Origin: a virus
Strand: one strand, 5' to 3'
Length of the DNA stretch: 22,085 nt
Virus record (IMG/VR): IMGVR_UViG_3300020020_000169
Location: 1-22,085 of that record
Positions within the stretch are counted from its first letter, which is position 1. Each line of letters starts with the position of its first letter. Made by a program: the position numbers and the translations under genes. The notes beneath the pieces were generated by a model. That model saw only the letters and a list, made by a program, of their open reading frames with translations. It did not search any database and was not told where the DNA came from. Shown one piece after another: positions 1,949-14,907 of the stretch.

Positions 1949-3388
1949 TCATGCGACGAGAAGCAGAGACGCTATGTCGTCGTCCTCTTCGTCCTGTATG
2001 CGCTGGGCCTCTGCCGCCTCATGTTGGGCTATGGCGAAGTCCACGGCGCGCGATAGTTCGGCAACCGCCGCTGACAACCGCTCGACCCTGGCCAGCGATT
2101 GAACGGCGCGCTCTAAAGCCTCTGTTTCAACGGTGAGCGGGCTTGCCTTTGCCTCTGCCCGTAATTCTTGCGCCGCCTCGCGTATTTCGGCGGCTGTTGT
2201 GTCCTCATCAAACCGATAGCGGCGATAGCCGCGGGGCTGTCTGCGTGCCGTCCTGGATTGGAGCGGATGAAGACTGCCCGCCCCACCAGAGTCCACCACA
2301 ACGGGCGGCTGCTCTTCTTCGTCTGCAACAACGGTTAGCGTTCCAGCCAACCCATTAGCCTGAACGCCGACTAGCTCGACCGAAACCGCACCGCTCGCAC
2401 CGGTAGCGTCTACCTCACCGGCCGCCGCTGTGGCCGCTACGCCCGTTAGCGTGACAATCGCAGCGCCCGTGACAGTCAAGTCACCGGCCGCAGCCGTAGC
2501 AGCAACGCCCGTGATTGCCGCGCTGACGTTCCCGGCAGTCTCAGCGACCAGCGTGCCAATCGAGCCGGTAGCAGCAACCCCGGTGAGGTCTACGACAGCC
2601 TTTCCGCTGACAGTGGGGGTGTTGACCGCAGCAGTGGCCGCGACACCCGTGACGTTGGTATTGGCCGCCGCTGTGACAGTTGCCGTACCGACCGCAGCAG
2701 TACCGTTGACACCCGTCAGCGTGACGTTGGCCTTACCCGTGACGGTTGGCGTGTTAACCGCCGCAGTCGCAGCGACACCCGTTAGAGTGACATTGGCCTT
2801 TCCTGAAACTGTGACGTCACCGACAGCGGCGGTTGCCGCAACTCCGGTGACGGTTGTTGACGCATTACCCGAGACAGTCGGCGTTCCAACTGCCGCCGTG
2901 GCAGCCACGCCGGGTAGAGTGACGTTCGCAGCAGCGGTAATCGTTACCGTGCCAACCGCCGCAGTAGCCGCAACTCCCGTGACGTTGGCTGTTGTACCTG
3001 ACGCGAGCGAAACGGTGACATCACCGGCCGCGGCCGTAGCTGCAACGCCGGTAATCGAAACAATCGCCTTGCCGGTCGCATCCAACGTGCCGACGGCAGC
3101 CGTTGCAGACACCCCCGTCAGCGTGACGTTGGCTTTTCCAGTCGCGTCCAGCGTGCCGACAGCAGCCGTAGCAGAGACGCCCGTGATGCTTGCCGAAACC
3201 GGCAGCGAAGCTGTCAGTGTACCGACAGCAGCGGTCGCGCTCGTGCCGGTTATATCGACGACGGCCTTGCCGCTTACAGTAAGCGTTCCGACCGCAGCGG
3301 TTGCCGCAACGCCGGTAATATTGGCAGTGACAGCGCCAGCCGCACCCGACTCGCCCGCAGCCGGGAGCGGCTGGAAGACCCAGGACAT
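1949..3388 (-). CDS. Tandem 22-residue repeat protein, putative virion fibre or decoration protein
   Basis: 479 residues in three parts: a short N-terminus (1-23, SWVFQPLPAAGESG), fifteen tandem repeats (about 24-356), and an acidic/helical C-terminus (357-479). The repeat consensus is ITGVAATAAVGTLTVSGKANVT; eleven of the first fourteen are exactly 22 residues, three are 24-25, and the last is shorter. The Thr-Gly near each repeat start and the alternating Val/Thr pattern suggest two short beta strands per repeat, i.e. a beta-solenoid or fibre. The C-terminus has a Glu stretch and a coiled coil (TTAAEIREAAQELRAEA..AVDFAIAQHEA). The ATG overlaps the upstream stop as TAATG. Its place between portal and scaffold genes implies a virion part; the exact role is not known. 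Confidence 0.7.
   Translation of the reverse strand: MSWVFQPLPAAGESGAAGAVTANITGVAATAAVGTLTVSGKAVVDITGTSATAAVGTLTASLPVSASITGVSATAAVGTLDATGKANVTLTGVSATAAVGTLDATGKAIVSITGVAATAAAGDVTVSLASGTTANVTGVAATAAVGTVTITAAANVTLPGVAATAAVGTPTVSGNASTTVTGVAATAAVGDVTVSGKANVTLTGVAATAAVNTPTVTGKANVTLTGVNGTAAVGTATVTAAANTNVTGVAATAAVNTPTVSGKAVVDLTGVAATGSIGTLVAETAGNVSAAITGVAATAAAGDLTVTGAAIVTLTGVAATAAAGEVDATGASGAVSVELVGVQANGLAGTLTVVADEEEQPPVVVDSGGAGSLHPLQSRTARRQPRGYRRYRFDEDTTAAEIREAAQELRAEAKASPLTVETEALERAVQSLARVERLSAAVAELSRAVDFAIAQHEAAEAQRIQDEEDDDIASLLLVA
2321..3319 (-). repeat. Fifteen tandem ~66-bp coding repeats
   Basis: The DNA encoding the 22-residue repeats has a period of 66 bp, with three units lengthened by 6-9 bp. 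Units differ at many silent positions while the encoded GVAATAAVG core is kept, so selection on protein sequence rather than recent duplication explains most of the similarity. Not a CRISPR array: there are no unique spacers and the frame is open throughout. Confidence 0.85.
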
Positions 3389-12925: not shown

Positions 12926-13069
12926 TTATTTAGCCCAGACCTTCCGCCGCGCCGCCGAAACAGAACTCCATTCCGAACGTCTTGCCGGCCGCTGCCTGGT
13001 ATTCTTCGCGCACCACTCACGCGCACGCTGCAATTGTTCCGCTTTTCTCACTAGGTACGGCTTTCGCAT
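12926..13069 (-). CDS. 47-residue basic small protein
   Basis: A frame too short for usual ORF calling: ATG at 13069, TAA at 12928-12926. An AAAAAGGG ribosome-binding site lies about 5 nt before the ATG. The product begins MRKPYLVRKAEQLQRAREW, contains a single Cys, and is rich in Arg/Lys (RQRPARRSEW, AARRKVWAK), so DNA or RNA binding is plausible. It overlaps the end of the GcrA-like gene by 53 bp in another frame and fills what would otherwise be a gap in a coupled operon. Confidence rests on the ribosome-binding site and the fit in the operon. Confidence 0.5.
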   Translation of the reverse strand: MRKPYLVRKAEQLQRAREWCAKNTRQRPARRSEWSSVSAARRKVWAK

Positions 13070-13220
13070 TTCGACCCTTTTTCATCATGCCAAGACGGAA
13101 TAGCTTTCCGAGTGCAGTGGAGCGAGTGACGCCGAAATGGTCGGCAATCTGTTGGCCGGTGTAGCCAGCACGCCACAGCGACTTCATCATTTCGCAGTCT
13201 TTTCCGCTCCAAAGTTTCAT
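13017..13220 (-). CDS. GcrA-like helix-turn-helix protein
   Basis: 67 residues from the ATG at 13220, which has GAGGGG immediately upstream and overlaps the preceding stop (ATGA). The pattern WSGKDCEMMKSLWRAGYTGQ, QIADHFGVTRSTALGKLFRLG closely follows the N-terminal DNA-binding domain of GcrA, the alphaproteobacterial cell-cycle regulator that acts at promoters carrying methylated GANTC. GcrA proteins are much longer and have a C-terminal segment contacting sigma70; here only a 20-residue tail remains. It could act as a minimal DNA-binding regulator or compete with host GcrA. Resemblance is seen by eye; function is inferred. Confidence 0.7.
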   Translation of the reverse strand: MKLWSGKDCEMMKSLWRAGYTGQQIADHFGVTRSTALGKLFRLGMMKKGRNAKAVPSEKSGTIAACA

Positions 13221-13384
13221 GTGCCCCTCTCCCATCCATGATGGATTGCCCAGCGCATTCGTTCGCAGAACGCCTGATCGCGCGCGATAGCCTTATTGCG
13301 GCGCGCTTCTTCGGTATCCGTGTCGAGGATGGGCTCGCCAGCCTTTGAGTTTCTGGATGCGGGATTAACGGGACGGCCTGCCAT
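13217..13384 (-). CDS. 55-residue small phage protein
   Basis: Too short for ordinary ORF calling: ATG at 13384, TGA at 13219-13217, the latter overlapping the next start as ATGA. The product begins MAGRPVNPASRNSKAGEPIL and continues DTDTEEARRNKAIARDQAFC, ERMRWAIHHGWERGT. The start GRPVNPxSRN resembles the beginnings of small basic phage regulators. The gene fills the space between two helix-turn-helix genes and is coupled to the downstream one. Role unknown. Confidence 0.6.
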   Translation of the reverse strand: MAGRPVNPASRNSKAGEPILDTDTEEARRNKAIARDQAFCERMRWAIHHGWERGT

Positions 13385-13937: not shown

Positions 13938-14162
13938 TCACGCGCGGGCCTCGACCGATTGTGCATCAGAAGTCAGCGGGCCGGTCCAGTCGTCGGCCGC
14001 AACGGCGCCATCCGTGAACGCCTTGATCTTGTCGATGGCTTCCCAGTCTGGGCGCACCAACCGTCTGCGCCAGCGGCTTACCGAGACGCGATTACGGCCA
14101 ACGGCCGCAGCCACTTCTTCGTCGGACAAATCGCGCCGGGCCATGAAGTCTGACAAATGCAT
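13938..14162 (-). CDS. Cro-like helix-turn-helix regulator
   Basis: 74 residues from the ATG at 14162. The open frame extends 9 codons upstream, but that part would lie inside the promoter. The helix-turn-helix is MARRDLSDEEVAAAVGRNRV, SVSRWRRRLVRPDWEAIDKI, and an Asp/Ala-rich tail (AFTDGAVAADDWTG) follows. As first gene of the leftward lytic unit, next to two operators and opposite a repressor gene, it holds the position of lambda cro and probably represses the same operators. There is no ribosome-binding site, and the -10 hexamer lies only about 8-10 bp before the ATG, so the mRNA may be leaderless. Confidence 0.75.
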   Translation of the reverse strand: MHLSDFMARRDLSDEEVAAAVGRNRVSVSRWRRRLVRPDWEAIDKIKAFTDGAVAADDWTGPLTSDAQSVEARA

Positions 14163-14168
14163 AACGGA

Positions 14169-14222
14169 CAATGTACACCCTGCGCACAATGCCGGTCAAG
14201 CAGAATGTACGCCCTGTGTTAT
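14169..14222 (-). promoter_or_regulatory. Leftward early promoter with two operators (PR-like)
   Basis: Minus-strand promoter: -35 TTGACC (14199-14194), 16-bp spacer, TGTACA (14177-14172); TACATT at 18 bp is an alternative -10. The proximal operator TGTAC-ACCCTGC-GCACA (14172-14188) covers the -10. A distal operator TGTAC-GCCCTGT-GTTAT (14206-14222), degenerate in one half, lies upstream of the -35. Their centres are 34 bp apart. Bound repressor would block RNA polymerase and may activate the repressor gene on the other side. Confidence 0.7.
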
Positions 14223-14250
14223 TCCAAGCGATCCGACTCGCGTGCATCCT

Positions 14251-14526
14251 ATGTACATGGCGCGGAACGCTAAGCTTAAACCAGCCAAACCACCGTCTAG
14301 GGCGCCAACCTGGCGGCGCACCAATATGGTCAACTGGCGCAAGCACGCTCGGCTCACTCAGGAGCTAGTCGCAGACGCCGTAGGAGCGTCCTACGTCACC
14401 GTAGGGCGATGGGAGCGGGGCGAGGTGCCTCCCGACGCAAACGCACTGGAAACCCTTGCTAGGCTCTACGGAACCGACATCCATTCCATGTTGAATCGTC
14501 TGCCGTCCACGACAGACCAAAAATAA
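14251..14526 (+). CDS. Short XRE-family repressor (CI-like)
   Basis: 91 residues from the ATG at 14251; ATGs at 14257 and 14326 (MVNWRKHARL) are alternatives, and none has a ribosome-binding site. The XRE helix-turn-helix is canonical: ARLTQELVADAVGASYVTVG RW then ERGEVPPDANALETLARLYG (about residues 33-74 from the first Met). It lies between two operator pairs and reads in the same direction as the recombination operon, exactly the place and direction of lambda cI. Unlike lambda CI there is no LexA/S24-type autocleavage domain, so RecA-dependent induction by self-cleavage is not expected. It is the best candidate for the immunity repressor. Confidence 0.75.
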   Translation: MYMARNAKLKPAKPPSRAPTWRRTNMVNWRKHARLTQELVADAVGASYVTVGRWERGEVPPDANALETLARLYGTDIHSMLNRLPSTTDQK

Positions 14527-14528
14527 AT

Positions 14529-14582
14529 TGTACGCGCGGTGAACAATTGACTTGACGCCCCCTGTACGCGGGGTGTACAAGT
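14529..14582 (+). promoter_or_regulatory. Rightward early promoter with two operators (PL-like)
   Basis: Plus-strand promoter: -35 TTGACG (14552-14557), 16-bp spacer, TGTACA (14574-14579); TACAAG at 18 bp is an alternative -10. The proximal operator TGTAC-GCGGGGT-GTACA (14563-14579) is a perfect dyad covering the -10. The distal operator TGTAC-GCGCGGT-GAACA (14529-14545; with the flanking bases TTGTAC..GAACAA) lies upstream of the -35. Centres are 34 bp apart, as in the leftward module. Confidence 0.75.
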
Positions 14583-14607
14583 GCTCCTGCGAACACAGGA
14601 GCACGCC

Positions 14608-14907
14608 ATGTCAGCCCGCCCCACCGATTTCAGCCAGTTCGTAGTCACCCAGAGCCACGGGACGCACGGACACCAGAGCGTCACGTCGCCGGAAGACACC
14701 CGCGCAAGCATCGCCAACGACATCGCCACCGGCCAGATCGAACGCGATCGCGTTGTCTCCGTCGTTGAGTTCAACGTGTCCGAAGGGTGGTGCAAGGACA
14801 TTACCGACGACATTCTTGACGATGCAGAAATCATGTTCGGGCGGCAGCACGGCCCGCGCCGCGATCCGATGACTGGCGTCGATTTCCCCTTCGCTGAAAA
14901 TCATTGA
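14608..14907 (+). CDS. First gene of rightward operon, small phage protein
   Basis: 99 residues from the ATG at 14608, which has ACAGGAG about 8 nt upstream; nine extra upstream codons would lie inside the leader. The sequence starts MSARPTDFSQFVVTQSHGTH and contains ETTR-like polar stretches, FNVSEGWCKDITDDILDDAE and GPRRDPMTGVDFPFAENH. There are no cysteine clusters or membrane segments. As the first rightward gene it would be made immediately after derepression. No family recognised. Confidence 0.6.
   Translation: MSARPTDFSQFVVTQSHGTHGHQSVTSPEDTRASIANDIATGQIERDRVVSVVEFNVSEGWCKDITDDILDDAEIMFGRQHGPRRDPMTGVDFPFAENH

Follow-up and report, generated by a model that had tools for sequence, protein, structure and literature searches.

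The window analysed here is a stretch of viral DNA of 22,085 nucleotides (IMG/VR record IMGVR_UViG_3300020020_000169, positions 1 to 22,085), and the system in question is a presumptive genetic switch centred on a gene for a small regulator of the XRE family. Two outward-facing modules flank this gene, one at 14172-14227 on the minus strand and one at 14524-14579 on the plus strand. Between them they contain four 17-bp sites resembling TGTAC-N7-GTACA, which form two pairs, each with its centres 34 bp apart (Table 1). An earlier sequence-only reading of the window had described mirror-image modules of about 52 bp with identically spaced operator pairs; the mirror proved real, 33 of 56 columns being identical between left and right, and the 34-bp spacing was confirmed on both sides, with a degenerate left distal site. 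The minus-strand module reads TTGACC (14199-14194)-N16-TGTACA and the plus-strand module TTGACG (14552-14557)-N16-TGTACA. The same reading had taken TGTACA, at a 16-bp spacer, as the -10 element, which fits the consensus poorly; TACATT and TACAAG, at 18 bp, fit better. On both sides the predicted proximal operator overlaps the promoter spacer and the -10 element, and the distal operator lies upstream of the -35 element.

The motif alone is not rare: a search of the window for TGTAC-N7-GTACA with at most two mismatches, proposed earlier as a check, found 5 sites against 3.3 expected. Stricter tests were therefore made. The identities in the mirror alignment exceeded those in all 200 shuffles (mean 25.6, maximum 32; z=4.2). 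When a position weight matrix (PWM) was trained on three of the four sites and the fourth was held out, the held-out sites ranked 1, 3, 3 and 4 among 22,061 positions; a matrix built from the right pair alone put the two left sites in 3rd and 4th place, and training in the reverse direction also succeeded. An unsupervised search for paired dyads, given neither motif nor spacing, returned a spacing (D) of 34 bp with a score of 40/48, against a maximum of 35 in column shuffles (n=150). All three TGTACA hexamers in the 22-kb window fall inside the switch (14172, 14252 and 14574).

Table 1. Predicted features of the switch region (window coordinates)
Feature	Position	Strand	Centre	Details
Cro-like small helix-turn-helix gene	13938..14162	-		74 aa; divergent from XRE gene; opens leftward operon
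-10 TACATT, leftward promoter	14170..14175	-		18-bp spacer; consensus scan reports TTGACC-N18-TACATT
Left proximal operator	14172..14188		14180	1 mismatch
-35 TTGACC, leftward promoter	14194..14199	-
Left distal operator, degenerate	14206..14222		14214	TGTACGCCCTGTGTTAT; 3 mismatches; held-out rank 4 of 22,061
Candidate third left operator	14241..14257		14249	over XRE start codon; 35 bp beyond left distal site
XRE helix-turn-helix gene, presumed prophage repressor	14251..14526	+		ATG 14251 or 14257; 89-91 aa
Right distal operator	14529..14545		14537	1 mismatch
-35 TTGACG, rightward promoter	14552..14557	+
Right proximal operator	14563..14579		14571	perfect TGTAC-N7-GTACA, 0 mismatches
-10-like TACAAG, rightward promoter	14576..14581	+		18-bp spacer; placed from the mirror
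Shine-Dalgarno AGGAG of first rightward gene	14597..14601	+
First gene of rightward early operon	14608..14907	+		99 aa; function not assigned

The same anatomy recurs in relatives. Relative loci were taken as those sharing terminase, recombination or replication proteins, and were then searched for the switch proteins. Matches to the XRE, Cro-like and/or first rightward protein were found in L017, L077 and L058; a relative of the Cro-like protein occupies the same position in L058 and L077, and a distant relative of the first rightward protein does so in L017. In all three, the XRE gene lies between mirrored modules whose score is above that of every shuffle. Mirrored modules are also present around helix-turn-helix (HTH) genes in L085, L166/L164, L084, L011, L295, L300, L303, L312 and Acetobacter phage phiAP1. 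The operator sequence is wholly different from phage to phage while the layout is constant, the operators being GCCTAATGGGC in L077, CTATGCRTTRYGCATAG in L085, GTGGATGTGATCCAC in L058 and TTCGCA-N3-TGCGAA in phiAP1. A mirror score of z>=4 was reached by 13 of 117 HTH open reading frames (ORFs), near-duplicate contigs included (L164/L166, L105/L107), and by 2 of 600 random ORFs in the control; without gene context, the mirror scan is noisy near the threshold.

Other routes to relatives yielded little. The XRE protein as sole query matched no viral contig, and compared with solved structures it gave no match at E<=0.001. A search with the right module written as a degenerate DNA pattern gave 11 contigs, none of which (0/11) had an XRE match or a flank-scan z>=4. 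Among candidate switches, the Afipia locus (L328) has a divergent HTH pair and was rejected because the right mirrored module is missing, and Sinorhizobium PBC5 and Rhizobium RHph_I1_23 were set aside on mirror scores that were not significant. L318 (Bradyrhizobium phage ppBjS10J-1) carries three CCTACCGTTTTGG-type sites between divergent HTH genes at 1866-1945 and two more downstream of its XRE gene at 2310-2380, with a possible 45-bp spacing and a mirror score that is not significant. In L323 (Synechococcus phage Yong-M4-211), TGTACA hexamers flank an XRE gene (1912-1940 and 2992-3032), as in the window; here the spacing search suggests 35 bp, and the mirror score is again not significant.

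The unsupervised search was applied to twelve switches, each of which beats its own 150 column shuffles. The spacing is 34 bp in the window, L077 and phiAP1, 35 in L166, 33 in L058 and L280, and 32 in L084, so that seven of the twelve fall at 32-35 bp; L085 (24), L011 (25) and L017 (44) lie one helical turn away, and L303 (17) and L312 (16) are exceptions. Ten of the twelve spacings fall in a common helical phase, near +2.4 bp (Rayleigh p=9e-5, the ten having been picked after the data were seen; p=0.007 with all twelve), although both p-values are optimistic because some switches share ancestry. The XRE switches of L303 (2840-2910 and 3384-3440) and L312 (2900-2958 and 3341-3400) have a different operator array, its repeats recurring at intervals of 16-17 bp. 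The suggestion that strict spacing points to cooperative binding across about three helical turns thus holds as regards a non-random spacing, but the number of turns was inexact, 34 bp being 3.24 turns at 10.5 bp per turn.

The two transcripts would differ in how they are translated. In the window the ATG of the Cro-like gene (14162) coincides with the predicted transcription start. On the Cro side of the 14 switches listed, the distance between the ATG and a -35-like TTGAC, measured from its first T, is 34-37 nt (mean 35.6), the nearer one being taken where two such sequences occur; the sample includes L303 and L325, whose -35 elements are only TTGCGC and TTGAT, and the closely related L295, L300 and phiAP1. 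Because this is the distance at which transcription should begin, the Cro-like mRNA is probably leaderless, and the opposite mRNA is probably leadered: there, 8 switches have their start codon 54-61 nt from the -35 element, and that of the window is preceded by AGGAG. The predicted asymmetry is seen at 14162 and 14608 in the window and in L077, L166, L058, L017, L085, L084 and L322. To our knowledge, a leaderless Cro-like mRNA as a regular feature of such switches has not been described. The mechanism itself is not new, since the cI and cro mRNAs of PY54 were found to be leaderless by rapid amplification of cDNA ends (PMC4488713), as is the repressor mRNA in CP-933P paaR2 and lambda cI (PMC8630535).

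The XRE protein has HTH matches only (Pfam HTH_31, 8.8e-11; HTH_3, 3.2e-09) and falls in the PHROG category of transcriptional regulators. A Pfam search found no C-terminal dimerisation, autocleavage or peptidase domain in its approximately 90 residues; as a single-domain protein it is, on its domain content, outside the lambda CI/S24 (LexA-like) repressor family. The Cro-like protein matches HTH_26/HTH_31 weakly, below the Pfam cut-off, and is placed by PHROG among transcriptional repressors. Beyond its gene, the leftward operon has genes for a GcrA-like protein, for a resolvase of the RusA type and for a replication initiator; those for terminase and portal lie further along. The rightward operon continues after its first gene with a recombination-like gene, the only match in a DNA search of GenBank phages (where it resembles an annotated phage recombination gene), and with a single-stranded DNA-binding protein (SSB) and NinB; a methyltransferase stands at the far end. 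The small GcrA-like protein (13017-13235, minus strand; Pfam GcrA, 2.1e-07) belongs to a family of cell-cycle regulators of alphaproteobacteria. A search of 265 genomes from the genus to which G001, a Bradyrhizobium, belongs found no close XRE; the host is probably an alphaproteobacterium. Elsewhere, a 479-aa protein consisting mostly of short repeats (TGVAATAAVGT...) is encoded next to the structural genes (1949-3388, minus strand).

At the sequence level the region has an HTH gene between outward early promoters with shared operators, a divergent Cro-like gene (with weak family scores) heading an early operon with a replication initiator downstream, and operators that overlap, on both sides, the promoters they would control. 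With the mirrored modules and their recurrence in relatives, this supports the earlier proposal of a lambda-like switch, and the locus is very probably the immunity region of a lambda-type temperate phage in which the XRE protein would bind paired palindromes at both outward promoters. On this model two 17-bp palindromes would be bound at each promoter, and protein on the proximal site would cover the spacer and the -10 element and so block RNA polymerase. With 34 bp fixed between them, the two dimers would always stand in the same helical relation, making mutual contact possible; because the repressor lacks a C-terminal dimerisation/peptidase domain, cooperativity of the lambda CI type is something we only infer. 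Filled sites would keep off both the leftward operon (Cro-like, GcrA-like, RusA, replication) and the rightward one (recombination, SSB, NinB), and loss of the repressor would allow the two to fire together. The Cro-like protein, made from its probably leaderless mRNA, would in turn repress the XRE promoter.

Other explanations have to be set against this model. That chance similarity of GC-rich sequence produced the pattern gains something from the five matches to the motif at up to two mismatches, but it is hardly credible in the face of the shuffle, PWM and unsupervised-spacing controls and of the recurrence in relatives whose operators differ in sequence. A more serious alternative is that promoter geometry alone sets the spacing, with independent sites over the -10 element and behind the -35 element and with dimers that are not in contact. 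In most switches the proximal centre lies 16-19 bp downstream of TTGAC, counted from its first T, and covers the spacer and the -10 element (L084 is an exception), and the -35 element stands between or beside the paired sites; no dimer-dimer domain is known, moreover, in an HTH protein of about 90 residues. Distal sites at 24/25, 32-35 and 44 bp, in steps of about one turn, are not what geometry alone would predict. We consider this alternative plausible, though appreciably below an even chance.

The roles of the two regulators might also be reversed, the small minus-strand HTH protein being the lysogenic repressor and the XRE protein the Cro-like one. Both are small HTH proteins lacking a peptidase domain, and annotation in related phages is inconsistent (the XRE of RHph_N2 is labelled 'cro-like repressor'). 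Such an exchange is nevertheless improbable: the XRE gene lies between the operator modules, like cI in lambda, the minus-strand gene is the first of the leftward early operon, to which the replication genes belong, and in L084 the gene at the XRE position encodes a 217-aa protein that by eye looks like a LexA-like CI. A further variant concerns the number of operators. The sequence-only reading had counted only two per side, where lambda itself has three; two are clear on each side, but 'only' is not secure, since a weak third candidate overlaps the XRE start. The left side might then have three operators (14180, 14214 and 14249) to the right side's two, an arrangement like that of N15 and phiKO2, with the third autoregulating XRE. 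The candidate has 2 mismatches and lies 35 bp beyond the left distal site, but its PWM rank is only 13-16, one half-site is poor and no comparable inner site was found in the relatives examined, which makes this arrangement rather unlikely.

Several observations weigh against the model of an XRE-controlled immunity switch itself. The left distal operator appears weak and depends mainly on one half-site; the consensus promoter scan reports the left promoter only, and the -10 elements fit the consensus poorly. The operators of L303 and L312 are out of phase with the others, and L295, L300 and phiAP1 are not independent. As regards lysogeny, no integrase was identified among the searched proteins of the 22-kb fragment.

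By its predicted layout the region is a true switch of the lambda type, served by a single-domain repressor, and belongs to a known kind of system. We suggest tentatively, at somewhat under an even chance, that alphaproteobacterial phages share an undescribed switch design, in which a single-domain XRE repressor is combined with operator pairs that keep to one helical phase (24/34/44 bp) but change freely in sequence, the promoters are symmetric and translation is asymmetric (a leaderless Cro-like mRNA and a leadered opposite operon). We know of no earlier description of the operator sites of such phages, and candidate sites are supplied here for a group known mainly from contigs. The relatives offer a natural test both of how operator specificity changes under a nearly fixed spacing and of immunity-specific, perhaps cooperative, control by a very small repressor.

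Among known systems, lambda OL/OR resembles the window in that the repressor gene stands between two outward-facing promoters, both with repeated operators, and that a Cro-like gene opens one early operon. The centres of lambda OR1 and OR2 are about 24 bp apart, in the same helical phase as the 34 bp of the window. In contrast to lambda, the window has two clear operators per side at a 34-bp spacing, a repressor without a C-terminal cooperativity/peptidase domain, and a Cro-like mRNA that looks leaderless. The telomere phages N15, phiKO2 and PY54 (immB) offer a second comparison: the PY54 cro mRNA is leaderless, as predicted for the Cro-like mRNA of the window, and the three-plus-two operator layout of N15 would match it if the site at 14241-14257 is real, but in these phages OL lies upstream of repA, and the sequence and arrangement of their operators are unlike those of the window. 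Acetobacter phage phiAP1 is an active temperate phage, inducible by mitomycin C, and its authors name its XRE ORF pair among the possible switch proteins; the word 'operator' is absent from their paper (PMC8566455). Like the window, phiAP1, L077, L017, L058 and L085 have an XRE gene between mirrored operator pairs and a leaderless-looking Cro-like gene; phiAP1 and L077 share its 34-bp spacing, L058 (33), L085 (24) and L017 (44) differ from it, and in each phage the operator sequence is its own.
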